Positions 27,040 to 63,230 of a stretch of DNA of 64,000 bases are shown in pieces. The notes beneath the pieces were generated by a model. That model was not told the origin of the DNA and did no database searches. It saw nothing but the letters and a program-made list of their open reading frames with translations. Origin of the DNA: Fibrobacter succinogenes (lineage in GTDB: Bacteria > Fibrobacterota > Fibrobacteria > Fibrobacterales > Fibrobacteraceae); assembly GCA_902768715.1 (NCBI GenBank), contig CACXMH010000002.1, positions 1 through 64,000 of the forward strand. Direction: 5' to 3'. The translations under genes and the position numbers were made by a program. Every line of letters starts with the position of its first letter. Position 1 is the stretch's first letter.

Positions 27040-29370
27040 ATGATTGTTACAGTGAAAAAACGCGACGGCCGCGAGATGCCGTTCAACATCGAGAAGATTT
27101 CTGCCGCTATCGAGAAGGCTTTCCGCGCCTCTGGTGAATTGGACGAACAGATCAAGGCCTCTCAGGACCAGCTGAACTTGTTGGGAAACGACGACGTGCT
27201 CTCTAGCACGGCCCTCCAGGTGGCGGCAAGCGCCGTTGGCCTCTTGGAAGCCGAAGGCAAGGTAAAGCCCGAAATCGAGGAAATCCAGGACGCCGTTGAA
27301 AAGGCCCTTACCGAGGGCGGTTTTGCCGATACCGCCAAGAGCTACATCCTGTACCGTGCCGAGCGTACCCGCATCCGCGAAGTGAACACCCGCCTCATGC
27401 ACACGCTCCGCGACATTACTTTCAGTTCCGCCAAGGAATCCGACCTCAAGCGCGAAAACGCGAACATCGACGGCGACACCGCCATGGGCACCATGCTCAA
27501 GTACGGTTCCGAATCGGCCAAGCATTTCTACACCATGATGATGCTCAAGCCCGAGCACAGCCGCGCACACTCCGAGGGCGACATCCACATCCACGATTTG
27601 GATTTCTACTCCCTCACCATGACCTGCTGCCAGATCGACCTGAAAAAACTCTTCAAGGGCGGTTTCAACACCGGTCACGGCCACCTGCGCGAACCCAAGG
27701 ATATCCGCAGCTACGCGGCTCTGGCGGCTATTGCCATACAAAGTAACCAGAACGACCAGCACGGCGGTCAGTCCATTCCCAACTTCGACTACGCCATGGC
27801 CGACGGCGTGCGCATCACCTACCGCAAGGCCTACCTCTCCAACCTGGTGAAGGCCCTGATTCTCTTTACCGGCAAGGAAGAAGAGGAAATCCTGCCGGTG
27901 GTCAAGAAACTCCACTCCGAAATGGCCGAGATGGGCATGGTGGCGACCCTCGTTCCCAACGAGAAGTTCGTGGAAGCCGAAGCCCGCGAACTTTCCAAGG
28001 TCTATGACGCCGAAATCGTGATGAAGGCCCAGAAGTTCGCCGAGAAGCAGGCCTACGAAGAAACGGACAAGACCACCTTCCAGGCCATGGAAGCCTTCGT
28101 GCACAACCTGAACTCCATGCACAGCCGCGCCGGCGCCCAGACGCCGTTCTCTAGCATCAACTACGGCATGTGCACCGAACCCGAAGCCCGCATGGTCATG
28201 CGTAACCTGCTGCTCACCACCGACGAGGGCTTGGGCGGCGGCGAGACGGCCATTTTCCCCATCCAGATTTTCCGTGTCAAGGAAGGCATCAGCCTGAATC
28301 CTGGCGACCCCAACTACGACCTGTTCAAGCTGGCCTGCAAGGTGAGCGCCAAACGCTTGTTCCCCAACTTCAGCTTCCAGGATGCCCCGTACAACCTGCA
28401 GTACTACAAGCCGGGTCACCCCGAAACGGAAATCTCTTACATGGGTTGCCGTACCCGCGTGATCGGCAACAACTACGACCCGACCCGCGAAATCAGCTTC
28501 GGCCGTGGCAACCTGAGTTTCACTTCTATCAACCTGCCCCGCATCGCCATCAAGATGAAGTCCGTGGACCTGTTCTTCAAGGAACTGGACCGCATGCTGC
28601 AACTGGTGAGCGACCAGCTCATGGAACGTTTTGCTGTGCAGAGCCGCCGCAAGGTCAAGAACTTCCCCTTCCTCATGGGACAGGGCGTGTGGATCGATTC
28701 CGAAAAGCTGGGCTGGGAAGACACCGTGGGCGAGGTCATCAAGCACGGCACCCTTTCCATCGGTTTCATCGGCCTTGCCGAAACCCTGGTGGCCCTTACC
28801 GGCAAACACCACGGCGAATCCGAAGCCTCCCAGGAACTGGGTCTCAAGATTATCGGCCACATGCGTGAATTCTGCGACAAGGAATCCAAGCGCCTGGGCC
28901 TGAACTTCAGTTTGCTGGCAACACCCGCCGAGGGCCTCTCTGGCCGTTTCGTGCGTATGGACAAGAAGAAGTTCGGCATTATCCCGGGCGTTACCGACCG
29001 CGATTACTACACCAACTCTTTCCACGTGCCGGTGTACTACAAGATTTCGGCCTTCAAGAAGATTTCTCTGGAAGCCCCGTACCACGCTCTCACCAACGCT
29101 GGTCACATCAGCTACGTGGAACTGGACGGCGACCCGAGCCAGAACCTGGATGCCTTCGAGAAGATCGTGCACCACATGGCAAAATCCGGCATCGGTTACG
29201 GAAGCATCAACCACCCGGTGGACCGTGACCCGGTTTGCGGATTCGTGGGTGTTATCGGAGACTGCTGCCCCCGCTGCGGCCGTAGCGAAGGTCACGCCAT
29301 TTCCGAGGCCAAGATCGAGGAACTGCGCAAGCTTTACCCGGGTATGCCTGCGTTCAAGGGAATAAGATAA
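27040..29370 (+). CDS. nrdD: Anaerobic ribonucleoside-triphosphate reductase, large part lacking the glycyl-radical tail
   Basis: 776 residues. The N-terminal ATP-cone (about 1-95, VTVKKRDGREMPFNIEKI) is the allosteric activity domain, followed by the ten-stranded NRDD barrel with GDIHIHDLDFY, QNDQHGGQSIPNFDYAMADGV and NLSFTSINLPRIA. The protein ends shortly after a zinc-type cysteine set (VCGFVGVIGDCCPRCG). The glycyl-radical motif expected in the last 40 residues is absent; it lies on the separate gene at 29511. The stop at 29368 is followed by a repeat element with further stops, so this is not a simple frameshift. It reduces NTPs to dNTPs anaerobically with NrdG. Confidence 0.93.
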   Translation: MIVTVKKRDGREMPFNIEKISAAIEKAFRASGELDEQIKASQDQLNLLGNDDVLSSTALQVAASAVGLLEAEGKVKPEIEEIQDAVEKALTEGGFADTAKSYILYRAERTRIREVNTRLMHTLRDITFSSAKESDLKRENANIDGDTAMGTMLKYGSESAKHFYTMMMLKPEHSRAHSEGDIHIHDLDFYSLTMTCCQIDLKKLFKGGFNTGHGHLREPKDIRSYAALAAIAIQSNQNDQHGGQSIPNFDYAMADGVRITYRKAYLSNLVKALILFTGKEEEEILPVVKKLHSEMAEMGMVATLVPNEKFVEAEARELSKVYDAEIVMKAQKFAEKQAYEETDKTTFQAMEAFVHNLNSMHSRAGAQTPFSSINYGMCTEPEARMVMRNLLLTTDEGLGGGETAIFPIQIFRVKEGISLNPGDPNYDLFKLACKVSAKRLFPNFSFQDAPYNLQYYKPGHPETEISYMGCRTRVIGNNYDPTREISFGRGNLSFTSINLPRIAIKMKSVDLFFKELDRMLQLVSDQLMERFAVQSRRKVKNFPFLMGQGVWIDSEKLGWEDTVGEVIKHGTLSIGFIGLAETLVALTGKHHGESEASQELGLKIIGHMREFCDKESKRLGLNFSLLATPAEGLSGRFVRMDKKKFGIIPGVTDRDYYTNSFHVPVYYKISAFKKISLEAPYHALTNAGHISYVELDGDPSQNLDAFEKIVHHMAKSGIGYGSINHPVDRDPVCGFVGVIGDCCPRCGRSEGHAISEAKIEELRKLYPGMPAFKGIR

Positions 29371-29371
29371 G

Positions 29372-29490
29372 AGGTGTTAGGTGGTAGGTGTTAGGCAATA
29401 GGAAAAAATCGCGGCGAAGCCGCCCAGCGATAGACGCGCAAGGCGCGTGAAACTATAGCCTAAAACCTGTAACCTATAACCTAAAACCTG
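29372..29490. repeat. Heptamer-armed double-hairpin element, copy 1
   Basis: Left arm GGTGTTAGGTGGTAGGTG and right arm CCTGTAACCTATAACCTA are degenerate 7-bp repeats, roughly complementary to each other. The core carries two GC hairpins, GCGGCGAAGCCGC and ACGCGCAAGGCGCGT. It sits exactly between nrdD and the glycyl-radical gene. Confidence 0.75.
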
Positions 29491-29510: not shown

Positions 29511-29657
29511 ATGTCTGAAAAAGAACTGAGCAAGTATGGCGAGGGTGTGGGTTTCGAACGCATCCGCCGCATCACCGGTTACCTGGTAGGTACCATCGAC
29601 CGTTTCAACAACGCCAAGCGCGCCGAAGTGAACGACCGCGTAAAGCACGGGGTGTAA
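29511..29657 (+). CDS. Separate glycyl-radical subunit of anaerobic ribonucleotide reductase
   Basis: 48 residues, strong Shine-Dalgarno AAGGAGGA six bases before the ATG. The peptide contains FERIRRITGYLVGTIDRFN followed by AKRAEVNDRVKHG, which is the C-terminal glycyl-radical signature of class III NrdD proteins; Gly23 in RITGYLVG is the expected radical site. In ordinary NrdD these residues follow the zinc cysteines in the same chain. Here they form a stand-alone peptide that would have to dock onto the 776-residue protein and be activated by NrdG downstream. It is flanked on both sides by copies of the heptamer-armed element. Assignment is by motif. Confidence 0.88.
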   Translation: MSEKELSKYGEGVGFERIRRITGYLVGTIDRFNNAKRAEVNDRVKHGV

Positions 29658-29664
29658 TTAGAAA

Positions 29665-29782
29665 AGGTTATAGGTAATAGGGGTTAGGTATTAGGAAAAA
29701 TCGCGGCAGAGCCGCCTTGTGATGGACGCACGAAGTGCGTGATACTTATCCTAAGACCTACAACCTAAAACCTAACAACCTT
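29665..29782. repeat. Heptamer-armed double-hairpin element, copy 2
   Basis: Same plan as copy 1: a GGTTATAGGTAATAGG-type left arm, hairpins GCGGCAGAGCCGC and ACGCACGAAGTGCGT, and a CCTACAACCTAAAACCTA right arm. The hairpin stems differ from copy 1 but pair. A short palindrome AAAGCGAGC-TT-GCGAGCTTT (29784-29801) follows before nrdG. Confidence 0.75.
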
Positions 29783-30375: not shown

Positions 30376-30388
30376 CCCAGCGCCACTG

Positions 30389-30455
30389 TCACCCCGGCCG
30401 CTCAACTTGTCATCCCCGCTGTTCAACTTGTCATCCCCGCGCAGGCGGGGATCTG
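30389..30455. repeat. Partial tandem and complete REP/dRS3-like palindrome
   Basis: CAACTTGTCATCCCCGC occurs twice in tandem, the second time completed into the palindrome ATCCCCGC/GCGGGGAT (30431-30453). It lies between the convergent nrdG and rhomboid genes. Confidence 0.7.
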
Positions 30456-30462
30456 CTGTCAG

Positions 30463-33366: not shown

Positions 33367-33384
33367 TCAAATCCCGGAAGTAGC

Positions 33385-33485
33385 AATCAGTCGTCAGTTA
33401 TGAGTTTTCAGTTATAGAAGAATCACCTCGCACCTCGAGCCTCGAACCTCACAACTCACCACTCACAACTCACCACTAATTTACA
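33385..33485. repeat. A/C-rich degenerate tandem repeat upstream of the HemW-like gene
   Basis: Short repeated words CACCTCGAGCCTCGAACCTC and ACTCACCACTCACAACTCACC follow a GTTATGAGTTTTCAGTTATAG-type opposite arm. The style matches the right arms of the heptamer-armed elements. Confidence 0.55.
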
Positions 33486-37604: not shown

Positions 37605-40600
37605 ATGAAAAAGATGGCTATTACATTAGGGTTATGGATGTTGCTTGCCTCGGCGACGCTGGTGTTCGCTGTGGACAATATCCCTGCTCCGAGAAATCCG
37701 GCCACGGGAGTCTGGATTAATCGAATCGGTGAAATCGTGGACCAACAGCCCACGAACGCCACCTTGTATTACACCAAGTATATTGGCGAAGACCGCGTCA
37801 AGAGTATTGACTATTTCTATAACGGCAAGGGGTATCTCTCTCTTTCCAACAAGAAGTTGCAGTGTAAATCTCGTTACGCCGACGGTATTATGCACCATCC
37901 TGATGGCGATTTGATTGTGGCGGGTCAGGGCGCACACCTCTACAAGATAAGGAAAAACAATGCAAGTGCCGACTCGAATAAATGCGTGATAAAGGAGTCG
38001 CCGGCAAAATATAAAACCAAGGATTCTGGAGCGAACGGTACCCAGGGCTATTGGCATGTGATGGTGGATCCCAGTCAGAAGTTTGTTTGGGCCGACGGTA
38101 TGCCGGGCCCCTTGGTTCGCTATGCCGTGGACAATACAAATGATAATGGTCTGTCGGATGTGGGCTATCAGGTAAAATTGACTCCGAAAAAAGACTATGG
38201 AAAATTGTGGCGTCCCAATAATAACCAATGGTCAAATTCCACCAAAAAGGGAGAACAGGTCACTACCGTGATATGGGACGGGGATGGTCATGCCTTCTTC
38301 ACATACTCCATTTATGCGGGGGGTGGATGCGAAACGGACATTAAAGGAGATTCCTGCAGTGCTGCATTGAAAACGAGTTGGCGGGCGGGTTCTCACTTTG
38401 GGTATTTCTCGGATACCGTATGGCAAAAGATAGAGACAAGGGAAGACTCCATAAAGTATCTTGGACATAGGGGAGATTCCGTAGTTACTGAATTAGAAAC
38501 GACGATTCTGATAGATTCTTTGGAAGGTGCCCATGGCGGCACGTACGACTCCCTTTCAAAGACCATCTTTATTTTCGGAGGATCTAAGATTGTCCAGATA
38601 AAGCCTGAGATTCGTGATGGTGCGATGACGGCCAGGGTTGTGGCAGAAATAGATTTACGCAAATACTTTTTCCCGGAGGATACGACTCATATGCCTCCAC
38701 CACGAACTCCCTCATGCCAACAGAGAGCAGATCCGAGCACTGGTGAATGGGTGACCAGAAATTATAATTACGAAAGTGGTTACTGCGATGGCGGAACAAC
38801 CCAGTCGGGTGGCATTGCCACGGTGGGTTGGCGTTTGGACCAGGGAACCGTAGATGGATTTGGACACCTGTTTGTGGCTAGTAACACGGGTCACGTGATT
38901 TTTGTGGACTATGCGGCGAATGACTCCCTTTACATTAGGGATAATATTCTTTTGCACATGGAGTGGATTGACAACTTCTTGGACGACTTGGCTCCTCTGG
39001 AAAAGGATAAAGTGATTCGTTCCAGCGCGAGCAGCTTTGGAGGGCTGTCTTCTAGTGATTACGAAAGGCTGAGTTCACAAGTGGAGTATCACTCCTCTAG
39101 TAGCATGAGCTCGTCGAGTAAAGGGAGTACTCCTGGTAGTAGCGGAAGCTCCTCTAATAGCAACGGTTCCAGCGGTAGTGGGAATTCCTCTAATAGCAAT
39201 GGTTCCAGCAATAGTGGAGACTCTAGCAACAGCGGAGAATCTTCCGGCAGTAACGGATCCTCTAGCAACAGCGGCGAATCCTCCGACAGTAACGGTTCTT
39301 CTAGCAACAGCGGCGAATCCTCCGGCAGCAACGGTTCCTCTAGCAATAGCGGGGAATCCTCCGACAGTAACGGTTCTTCTAGCAACAGCGGCGAATCCTC
39401 CGGCAGTAACGGTTCCTCCAGCAACAGCGAAGACGAAGGCGGTGGAATCCTTTACGGAAGCAGTAATTCCGATACCGACCCCTCTGGCGGTGGTGCAATT
39501 TACGGATATAGTGCCGGTAGTGGTGGCTATTACAACCCTTCTTGGGACGATTATGACAAGGGCGATTCTGTAGTACAGACTTCTGGTGTCTTGACACCTG
39601 CCAATGACAAGAAGCCCGGTGATGCGGGAACAGTGACCATCTTCGATAACGTGTACTACGTAGATAAATATCCTATCTCGATCCCGCTGGACTTCCGTCA
39701 GAATGCCAATCTTGATTCGGCCAAGGTGGGAGACGTAGTTGCCATCACTCTCAGCGCCGACAAGGTGAAAGAGTATTTCGGCGATAGCGTGCAAACCCTG
39801 ACGATTACCACGCCTTCTGGCCTTACCTTGATAGACCCGAAGAATCCCAAGCCCGGCGAGTCCATCGAAGTGGATGCCAATGGCAATGTTACCTTCTATG
39901 TGACCGCCTACGAACCGGTTCAAAATGGCGAGATCTACATTACGGATGATGTGGGCAATTTGGTGGTGCTGGACAACATCAACTTCTTTGCCGTTGTTCC
40001 CGATGGCAAGGTGGCCATGATCAAGGATTCCGATTTGGATAGCCAGCTGGACTATGTGGAAATCCTGTTGCAGGATACGCTACCCAAGAACGTGTCGATC
40101 ACTTCCGTCACTATGGTGGTGAATGGCAAGGTGATGAATCCTGCTACAGTGCCCACGCCCAATAGGGAAAGGAACAGGATTATCTTGAACGATGTGACGG
40201 ACCTGACGTTCCCCGATGAAATTGACCTGAGTTCCTATGTGAGCATTGAATACAAGGACGAAACGAATGGCGCTATTTATGTGCGCAAGGTACCTTTGAT
40301 TGAATTGGGCACAAACATCATCAAGGCTGCCCATGCCATCAGGGATACTTCCAAGGGCGGCATGGATTCCCTGTTTGTGGAATTCAATATCGATGTGGTG
40401 CCCTATGACTTGCGCTACCCGGAAATGCTCATTGCCATGAAGCAGAAAGGAAAGGAGATTTTCTTTGGCCTGGGACAAGTTTCCAAGGTTTACCTGCCCT
40501 CGAAGAATATTGTCATCTTTGTGGGTGAGAACCTGAAGCTTCAAGGAAATATGAAGGACAGCGTTTCCCTGTATCCTAACGTGACATTCAATGACGCTCC

Positions 40601-41867
40601 GTATATCACTTCTGACGAGTATGACCGTCATGTGCCGGTAACGGTTGTGGATCGCCTGCCTACGGTCAAGGACGTGGAATACTGGGACACGGATTACAAT
40701 GGCGTGTTGGACCAGGTGGTTATCAACTACTCTGCGCCTCTGAAACAGGAAGACCTGGAAAAACTCCGTATGTCATTCCCCTGGTATAGCAGCCGCGGTC
40801 TGCTTATCCAGTTGCAGGCGCAACCCGCGTACCTGAGAATCGACCCCAAGGATCCGACAAAGGTCATATGGGATGTATATGCGGCTACCGAACTTGTTTC
40901 CGGAGTTACAAGCATCAGCGAACAGCTGCCCCAGGCGACGGTCTATACCTACTACTCAATCTTTGACGAGATATTTGTCAACGAAGAACCTGTGAAGATT
41001 GTAGATAAGATGTCTCCGATTATTGCGGGAGCTACCCTCAATTACGGCAAAAAGACAGACACCCTATTGGTGCGCTTCTCGGAGCCCATCAAGAAGGTTG
41101 ATGGTCGTGATTTCTTCCGCTATATTCACGGCAAGGACACCTCGGATCTTATCCCGTCTTCTATATCCTGGTCCGAAGACGGCTTTACGGCAAAACTCAT
41201 CCTAGATGCAAGTCAGGGAACTATTTTGCCGGGAGACTCCCTGATGGTTGTTCGTGGCAGCAAGGGAAGAACCATTCAGGATAACTTCGGTAATATTTCC
41301 GGAGACGATCCGTCGCCTGTGGTGATTGGCGGCCTGCTGAACCACCTGGTGGAATCGACCCAGATGGGTACCTTCGACGACAAGGACGAAGTGTTGCATA
41401 CTTTGAGTTCCGTGAACCTCCGCTATATGCCGAGTTCCACCACCAAGGAAGACCTGGAAAAAGAAGGTGTCTTGGGTCAGTTGGTACAGCTAGGCGAACG
41501 GTTTGTGCCGCAGCTGCTGGACCGTGCCCAGATTGCAGCGGACGGTTCCGTGGATCCTTCTGTGTTGGATTCCCTGGATCCTGAAAAGGTGTTCATCTCC
41601 TTCGTGGTGAACTACTTTGACCACTTGGGACAATATGTGAACGACACCGCCATAACGGTGCCCTGTAACAGTCCTAAGTTTGGCGGTAACTGCCTGAATT
41701 CGGACCAGAAGGTGTTCGTGAACTGGAACTTCAAGGACCATAAGGGCCGCTTCGTTGGCGCGGGCGTCTATACGGTGCAGTTCAAGATGGTGGTTCGCTA
41801 CGAAAAGAAGAAGATAGAAGAAGAAATCAAGGACAAGTGGGGCGTGCGCCGTAAAAAGAAAAAGTAG
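37605..41867 (+). CDS. Giant secreted protein with Ser/Asn/Gly linker and Ig-like C-terminal modules
   Basis: 1420 residues. The signal peptide (LGLWMLLASATLVFA) is followed by an N-terminal region of about 450 residues resembling a beta-propeller-type sensor or surface domain (GDLIVAGQGAHLYKI, GGTYDSLSKTIFIFGGSKIVQI). A long Ser-rich linker (about 490-615) is built from 13-residue units of the SGESSGSNGSSSN type. The rest carries Ig-like modules and Asp-rich DSDLDSQLDYVEI and DTDYNGVLDQVVI loops, as in the upstream protein, ending in a FlgD-like domain and a basic RRKKKK tail. AGAGGG precedes the ATG. Confidence 0.78.
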   Translation: MKKMAITLGLWMLLASATLVFAVDNIPAPRNPATGVWINRIGEIVDQQPTNATLYYTKYIGEDRVKSIDYFYNGKGYLSLSNKKLQCKSRYADGIMHHPDGDLIVAGQGAHLYKIRKNNASADSNKCVIKESPAKYKTKDSGANGTQGYWHVMVDPSQKFVWADGMPGPLVRYAVDNTNDNGLSDVGYQVKLTPKKDYGKLWRPNNNQWSNSTKKGEQVTTVIWDGDGHAFFTYSIYAGGGCETDIKGDSCSAALKTSWRAGSHFGYFSDTVWQKIETREDSIKYLGHRGDSVVTELETTILIDSLEGAHGGTYDSLSKTIFIFGGSKIVQIKPEIRDGAMTARVVAEIDLRKYFFPEDTTHMPPPRTPSCQQRADPSTGEWVTRNYNYESGYCDGGTTQSGGIATVGWRLDQGTVDGFGHLFVASNTGHVIFVDYAANDSLYIRDNILLHMEWIDNFLDDLAPLEKDKVIRSSASSFGGLSSSDYERLSSQVEYHSSSSMSSSSKGSTPGSSGSSSNSNGSSGSGNSSNSNGSSNSGDSSNSGESSGSNGSSSNSGESSDSNGSSSNSGESSGSNGSSSNSGESSDSNGSSSNSGESSGSNGSSSNSEDEGGGILYGSSNSDTDPSGGGAIYGYSAGSGGYYNPSWDDYDKGDSVVQTSGVLTPANDKKPGDAGTVTIFDNVYYVDKYPISIPLDFRQNANLDSAKVGDVVAITLSADKVKEYFGDSVQTLTITTPSGLTLIDPKNPKPGESIEVDANGNVTFYVTAYEPVQNGEIYITDDVGNLVVLDNINFFAVVPDGKVAMIKDSDLDSQLDYVEILLQDTLPKNVSITSVTMVVNGKVMNPATVPTPNRERNRIILNDVTDLTFPDEIDLSSYVSIEYKDETNGAIYVRKVPLIELGTNIIKAAHAIRDTSKGGMDSLFVEFNIDVVPYDLRYPEMLIAMKQKGKEIFFGLGQVSKVYLPSKNIVIFVGENLKLQGNMKDSVSLYPNVTFNDAPYITSDEYDRHVPVTVVDRLPTVKDVEYWDTDYNGVLDQVVINYSAPLKQEDLEKLRMSFPWYSSRGLLIQLQAQPAYLRIDPKDPTKVIWDVYAATELVSGVTSISEQLPQATVYTYYSIFDEIFVNEEPVKIVDKMSPIIAGATLNYGKKTDTLLVRFSEPIKKVDGRDFFRYIHGKDTSDLIPSSISWSEDGFTAKLILDASQGTILPGDSLMVVRGSKGRTIQDNFGNISGDDPSPVVIGGLLNHLVESTQMGTFDDKDEVLHTLSSVNLRYMPSSTTKEDLEKEGVLGQLVQLGERFVPQLLDRAQIAADGSVDPSVLDSLDPEKVFISFVVNYFDHLGQYVNDTAITVPCNSPKFGGNCLNSDQKVFVNWNFKDHKGRFVGAGVYTVQFKMVVRYEKKKIEEEIKDKWGVRRKKKK
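39080..39435 (+). repeat. 39-bp tandem repeat encoding the Ser/Asn/Gly linker
   Basis: AGCAACAGCGGCGAATCCTC-type units alternate between Gly and Asp variants (SGESSG and SGESSD). The units at 39235-39435 are most regular, so copy number may vary between strains. Confidence 0.75.
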
Positions 41868-41873
41868 GTAGAA

Positions 41874-45000: not shown

Positions 45001-45070
45001 CGCCCATTCGACAAGCTCAGGGCAGGCTCCGCGTCATCCTGAGCGAGATGTCGCGAGGCATCGAGTCGAA
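45001..45070. repeat. REP-like intergenic element with CTCAGGGCAGGCTCC word
   Basis: CCCATTCGACAAGCTCAGGGCAGGCTCC followed by GTCATCCTGAGCGAGATG and GCATCGAGTCGAAGGA. The CTCAGGGCAGGCTCC portion is shared with the nested palindrome at 10378-10392. Confidence 0.5.
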
Positions 45071-45094
45071 GGATTTCACACAAAGGGAAAATGC

Positions 45095-56439: not shown

Positions 56440-56640
56440 TAGAAAAAAGCCTCGCGCCTCGAACCTCGTGCCTCGAACCTCAAGCCCCGACCTAATACTC
56501 GAAGGGAGTCCCTGAGTTATCGGCGATGTCATCCCTGGCCGTGAAGTCGAGGAAGGCACACCGTGCAACCTGCGTAACACTTCTTGAGACCCGCAGCCCT
56601 AGCCCCTAGATCCTAGCCCCTAATACCAGTCGGACTATGT
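56440..56640. repeat. A/C-rich tandem words with embedded hairpins upstream of the PorV-like gene
   Basis: GCCTCGCGCCTCGAACCTCG and CCTCGAACCTCAAGCCCC words at 56450-56490 are followed by a hairpin-rich middle and CCTAGCCCCTAGATCCTAGC words at 56600-56620. The composition matches the right arms of the heptamer-armed element. Confidence 0.5.
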
Positions 56641-61089: not shown

Positions 61090-61137
61090 GAAACTAACAA
61101 TTCTAGTAACTAGTAACTAGTAACTAGTAACTCAAAT
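61090..61137. repeat. TAGTAAC tandem repeat upstream of gatB
   Basis: Four copies of the heptamer CTAGTAA in AACAATTCTAGTAACTAGTA and onward. The same words occur in the palindrome at 41874. Confidence 0.7.
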
Positions 61138-63092: not shown

Positions 63093-63230
63093 TAGGTATT
63101 AGGTGTTAGGTATTAGGCAAAGAATCGCAGCTTCGCTGCACGAAACAAACACACACAGTGTGAGTTTCTTTGTTAAAACCTGTATCTTAAGACCTATCAC
63201 CTAAAACCTACAACCTATAACCTAAAACCT
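63093..63230. repeat. Heptamer-armed double-hairpin element, copy 3
   Basis: The left arm AGGTATTAGGTGTTAGGTAT and right arm CCTACAACCTATAACCTA match copies 1 and 2 near nrdD. The core has CGCAGCTTCGCTGC and CACACACAGTGTG hairpins. It ends five bases before the IMP cyclohydrolase start, leaving no room for a normal Shine-Dalgarno. Confidence 0.75.

Follow-up and report, generated by a model that had tools for sequence, protein, structure and literature searches.

Gene junctions in the genus Fibrobacter carry a family of short intergenic elements in which two small hairpins lie between inverted arrays of 7-bp repeats, and our results point to an uncatalogued, active kind of miniature mobile DNA for which no mobilising enzyme is known. 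The family came to light in a 64,000-nucleotide stretch of Fibrobacter succinogenes DNA (the window; genome G000) in which a sequence-only reading had described three copies; that first observation was real, and the family is larger than first described. We consider it moderately probable that the elements are non-autonomous miniature mobile DNA of the REPIN or MITE type, specific to the genus and residing within heptamer arrays. A search of the available literature found no published work on Fibrobacter repeats.

Anatomy of the window copies and their heptamer arms

The three copies, placed by the sequence-only reading at 29372-29490, 29665-29782 and 63093-63230, are all present there, and the plan proposed for them, with heptamers on the left, heptamers able to pair with these on the right and two hairpins in the core, is seen as TAGGTNN-type repeats on the left and ACCTNNA-type repeats on the right. 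Both core hairpins of the window copies have 3-nt loops. For the third copy the overall plan stood, while hairpin 2 had to be corrected to the position and sequence given below, where three further sites with arrays in the window are also included.

29372-29402, + strand: copy 1, left heptamer arm with its AGG-rich strand inward
29411-29423, + strand: copy 1, hairpin 1, GCGGC-GAA-GCCGC
29434-29448, + strand: copy 1, hairpin 2, ACGCGC-AAG-GCGCGT
29459-29490, + strand: copy 1, right heptamer arm (CCTNNNA); in relatives the junction is empty or of another flavour
29665-29695, + strand: copy 2, left heptamer arm
29703-29715, + strand: copy 2, hairpin 1, GCGGC-AGA-GCCGC
29726-29740, + strand: copy 2, hairpin 2, ACGCAC-GAA-GTGCGT
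29750-29782, + strand: copy 2, right heptamer arm
63093-63117, + strand: copy 3, left heptamer arm, directly 3' of the upstream stop codon TAA
63127-63139, + strand: copy 3, hairpin 1, GCAGC-TTC-GCTGC
63150-63162, + strand: copy 3, hairpin 2, CACAC-ACA-GTGTG, weaker
63192-63230, + strand: copy 3, right heptamer arm, adjoining the start codon (ATG) of a gene resembling IMP cyclohydrolase
33386-33477, no strand assigned: intergenic arrays of other flavours, CAGTTAT, ACCTCGA and ACTCACA
56448-56628, no strand assigned: AGCCTCG and CCCTAGN arrays on either side of an intergenic insert, which is not the same in G016
61103-61132, no strand assigned: CTAGTAA x4.3, a perfect heptamer array upstream of an ATG

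Folded as single-stranded DNA, the copies at 29372-29490, 29665-29782 and 63093-63230 gave z values of -7.5, -5.7 and -4.9, respectively, against 200 dinucleotide shuffles, and for each of them 0/200 shuffles matched the real fold. The arrays at 33386-33477 vary in unit number in G016 and G022 and are missing in G044 and G017. A 39-bp tandem repeat of 5.4 units also occurs in the window, at 39221-39429, within a large ORF (37605-41867).

The arms had been read as parts of the element itself; they are indeed present, but they are shared with genome-wide 7-bp arrays of several flavours. Heptamer arrays also flank other cores, occur alone or lack hairpins. By their 7-bp period, intergenic position and tandem order it is the arms, and not the core, that belong with the heptameric simple-repeat arrays. 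The pattern TAGGTNTTAGGTNTTAGG (three TAGGT heptamers, at most one mismatch) yielded 235 matches in the window's genome and 0 for the reversed control. In a flavour-free test, 5.1% of intergenic positions showed a strong self-match at lag 7 and 2.7% at the harmonic lag 14, with each of the remaining lags from 4 to 15 below 0.1%.

Statistics on arms and positions draw on roughly 0.8 Mb out of a 2.84-Mb genome; genes were called by a crude longest-ORF rule and arrays classed into nine flavours defined in this analysis. By these gene calls, arrays occur in 104 of the 395 gaps examined. Where both neighbouring genes point the same way, the stop codon marks the start of the first array (median -5 bp) and the last array comes to an end close to the next start codon (median 8.5 bp). 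Among 88 adjacent array pairs, 66 are inverted so that the G-rich strands face inward, four have the opposite arrangement and 18 are direct. The two arms are matched in flavour (42 pairs versus 26.6 by within-genome shuffles, 0/5000), a significance that needs discrete flavour classes and within-genome shuffles and depends on the classes chosen; a first profile test of flavour matching in G000 gave 0.54 versus 0.54 when shuffled, which was not significant. The inverted (66:4), flavour-matched arms and the start of arrays at the stop codon support a mobile element.

The same arm geometry, with the G-rich strand inward on both arms for all flavours and the two arms matched in flavour, and the equal edge and strand rule found in other phyla and for GGGAATC repeats (PMC4692102), would also suit a process in which G-rich 7-bp repeats are added at both 3' ends of breaks in gene gaps and hairpin DNA is captured between them. 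We regard this as very unlikely. Inverted arms are expected of any inverted-repeat element, and no reverse transcriptase domain (RVT_1) was found in G000, G001, G013 or G047, on which ground reverse transcriptase was rejected as the repeat maker in these genomes.

Covariation and mismatch type in the core

Thirty cores, all turned to one orientation, were aligned with MAFFT, leaving out some cores that lack the two-hairpin plan, and a covariance model was built from these 30. The consensus is nnAATAATC-GCGGC-NNN-GCCGC-CTTATAANAG-ACGCNC-NNN-GNGCGT-GATTCTTT, and the core at 63093 scores 48.6 bits, weaker than the 62 and 54 of the other two window copies. The earlier claim that the core stems differ and yet stay paired was borne out strongly: two-sided changes occur at 10 of the 11 stem pairs, with 46 cells altered on both sides versus 13.9 in shuffles (0/500), and the signal is lost when the stem partner is slid.

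Counted in 51 distinct cores, the stem positions comprise 458 Watson-Crick pairs and 10 mismatches each of G-T and A-C; on the sense strand the G-U and A-C mismatches number two each. The 51-core set includes the sequences used to build the model, and the model-fitted alignment biases the counts towards structure, a bias by which the comparison of G-T with A-C should be less affected. Since selection on RNA would favour G-U, the equal numbers suggest that the hairpin pairing is maintained in DNA rather than in RNA.

This bears on a different explanation, in which each element would act on the transcript, either ending transcription in both directions or stabilising mRNA between cistrons, and would be spread and kept by selection at that level. 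Predicted hairpins with a T-rich tail, a sequence pattern, number 3 versus 0.1 expected at the 63093 copy and 2 versus 0.5 at the other two window copies, and cores between co-directional genes share one orientation 15:4. However, G-U is in no excess over A-C in the stems of the 51 cores, on which ground RNA-level selection was rejected; elements lie within the nrdD-nrdG gene row, where termination would do harm; 11 of 41 cores lie between divergent genes; and Rfam gave no match for the elements, identifying only two tRNAs in the window. We hold a role at the transcript level to be quite improbable. Of the two possibilities first raised, non-autonomous or RNA-level elements, the former gains from insertion polymorphism and the latter is opposed by the equality of G-T and A-C.

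Spread among genomes and turnover at gene junctions

A covariance model scan of Fibrobacter genomes recovered many further copies, in 49 of the 61 genomes of the genus, with 24 matches in the window's genome and 79, 66, 64, 55 and 49 in G047, G001, G013, G006 and G008, respectively. In a phylum-wide sample outside the genus the model found essentially no cores, with one weak match. G013, G047 and G008 carry dozens of near-identical cores, many of equal score; the cores were identical or nearly so in 20 stretches examined directly, whereas homologous flanking DNA between these species is only about 71-84% identical. Their arm flavour is GAATCTA/GGGGCTA, unlike the TAGGT arms of G000. Both the near-identity of cores relative to flanks and the confinement to the genus, nearly all other genomes of the phylum being negative, support a mobile element. 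Where G008 and G047 carry identical cores at an orthologous site, conservation or gene conversion could be the cause instead. At the orthologous site L310 versus L324, a second hairpin element (CCACCTAAAGGTGGCCATGCCCACATAAGTGC...) lies inside the right heptamer arm in G047 and is missing in G008.

Eight TAGGT elements of G000 were compared between relatives, comprising those of L045, L251 and L248, which were chosen for holding elements and not for varying, and two window copies. All eight are absent or replaced in G016 and G022, and at seven of the eight sites G044 is likewise empty or lacks an element. With flanks that are mostly 93-98% identical, junctions are empty in G044, G017 and G002, where the genes lie between a few and about 24 bp apart, and are filled by different elements in G016 and G022. 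Copy 2 as a whole is missing, with genes abutting, in G016, G022, G044, G017 and G002. At L251:11470-11609, G000 has a full element, G016 and G022 have one 42-bp arm whose flavour is different, and G044 and G002 have 4 bp. Such insertion polymorphism between relatives supports non-autonomous mobility. That reading is weakened in that target-site duplication is not consistent, TAA/ATAA flanking the insert at one junction and none being seen at the others examined, and in that many junctions resemble replacement rather than clean insertion.

In the row nrdD-(48-aa ORF)-nrdG, relatives with NrdG 93-98% identical are empty or other-flavoured, and the second element is common to G000 and the more distant G001 and G006 (NrdG 80-82%). 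Sharing with these and not with closer relatives suggests that the mid-nrdG junction of G000 recombined with a G001/G006-like lineage. NrdD (anaerobic ribonucleotide reductase) is itself split in the window, into 27040-29370 and the 48-aa ORF at 29511-29657, whose match to PF13597 is confined to the final 30 positions (the glycyl-radical end, ITGY). Nearly all of the genus genomes compared have this ORF as a small gene of its own.

Two other inserts occupy gene junctions in the window. The 87-bp insert at 30376-30462 contains GTCATCCCCGC repeats, fills exactly the space between the stop codons of two convergent genes and is missing in G022, G016, G044 and G017; at a TTAG microhomology its edge reproduces CCCAGCGCC, a pattern like that of template switching. 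At 45001-45094, a stop and a start codon that abut directly in G044 and G017 are separated by 94 bp of inserted DNA containing a GTCATCCTGAGCG-type palindrome.

These junctions could also be the work of passive DNA dynamics, with 7-bp slippage and quasi-palindrome template switching making and homogenising arms and hairpins, and with junctions exchanged among strains by ordinary homologous recombination and no transposition. Heptamer number does vary between close relatives by exact 7- or 14-bp steps (at 33371, and by 14 bp at 41868), and the TTAG signature of the 30376 insert, the seemingly recombined mid-nrdG junction, the lack of an enzyme (Y1, RVT_1) and the occurrence of heptamer simple repeats in many phyla (PMC4692102, PMC4679880) are all in keeping with it. 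Against it, a specific 55-bp two-hairpin core at dozens of unrelated loci requires copying between loci, and the empty junctions carry no heptamer seed. We consider passive dynamics unlikely.

Candidate movers and relation to known repeats

REPINs, or REP-BIME elements, of Pseudomonas and E. coli are mobilised by RAYT. The Fibrobacter elements resemble them in being short, intergenic and non-coding, with two inverted hairpin units, high copy number and recent near-identical copies. They differ in that no Y1 (RAYT, PF01797) transposase was found in G000 or G006 despite many element copies. Y1 genes occur in 20/61 genus genomes and their presence does not track element copies, so that RAYT/Y1 was rejected as the mover, and no known transposase fits the elements. 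A further difference is that the hairpins of REPs have a GTAG or CGTC tetranucleotide at the foot (PMC3733652) whereas the Fibrobacter core has AATC/GATT, and the flanking heptamer arrays vary in sequence with lineage. With bacterial MITEs they share small size, lack of coding capacity, inverted ends and insertion polymorphism. No stable target duplication was seen across the junctions compared, and no partner with matching ends was found: in G008, the one genome tested, no ORF is bounded by half-cores, which eliminated an autonomous partner of that kind there, and a single inverted pair of full cores surrounds an ordinary gene. The lack of Y1 in G000 and G006 and of a half-core partner in G008 weakens the mobile reading. 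In anatomy and behaviour the elements are REPIN/MITE-like, acting like such elements without being classed as one.

The proposed unit is an imperfect palindrome, in which inverted AATC/GATT boxes, each beside a hairpin with a 3-nt loop, lie inside inverted 7-bp arrays. It would settle in gene junctions, mostly immediately 3' of the stop codon, its hairpins would be kept as DNA, single-stranded or cruciform, and its arms would lengthen, shorten and switch flavour through repeat slippage and exchange. The leading options for copying and movement are a trans-acting enzyme that would read the hairpins and host template switching between heptamer arrays through their homology.

Heptameric arrays have been described in Xanthomonas (GGGAATC) and Nostoc (GGGGATT), where they are likewise 7-bp units, intergenic and near gene edges, with 70-75 convergent inverted pairs per Xanthomonas genome and an equal strand rule for GGGAATC and for GGGGA(T/C)T (PMC4692102). 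The Xanthomonas repeats have one flavour, 83% being common to Xcc and Xac (PMC4692102), whereas those of Fibrobacter have several flavours, hairpin cores between arms and rapid replacement. TAACTGA heptamers form intergenic arrays at start codons in Beggiatoaceae, Cyanobacteria and Bacteroidetes; their reverse complement resembles the CAGTTAT flavour, and they differ in being mostly short, one-armed sets of a single heptamer, for which the available part of the report mentions no hairpin core (PMC4679880).

Among the matches listed for TAGGTNN arrays of four units are sequences from cyanobacteria, Bacteroidetes, Treponema, Shewanella, Clostridia, Patescibacteria and others, and named Fibrobacter records carry the same TAGGT arrays. 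With four Fibrobacter records set aside, the G-rich strand runs into the gap from the nearer gene edge in 58 of the 80 intergenic arrays among these matches (p = 3.5e-5), and with an edge within 60 bp, all records included, 51/61 arrays obey this rule. The comparison of the rule across PMC4692102 and PMC4679880 was made in this analysis, and the orientation of TAACTGA at start codons, as given in the latter, fits it. Inverted TAGGT arm pairs surround different cores in records from Prevotellaceae and Clostridiales and in one from Omnitrophota (L054, L061, L081, L087 and L096), so that the plan recurs in other phyla. It is conceivable, if a long shot, that the intergenic heptamer arrays of many phyla are scars of one shared undescribed process, in which G-rich 7-bp repeats are built inward from the gene edges flanking a break or insertion and hairpin cassettes captured between them, with Fibrobacter harbouring its most active form; if so, one mechanism would unite the heptamer repeats of Xanthomonas, Nostoc and Beggiatoa. 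The strand rule makes scattered bacterial reports of heptamers one testable phenomenon.

Fibrobacter is an important group of cellulose degraders in the gut. With arrays in about a quarter of the gaps examined, and with elements replaced between species although the genes alongside are for the most part 93-98% identical, the family is a major source of intergenic change. Its DNA-type covariation, shifting arm sequence and missing enzyme provide a clean setting in which to seek a new mobilisation mechanism.
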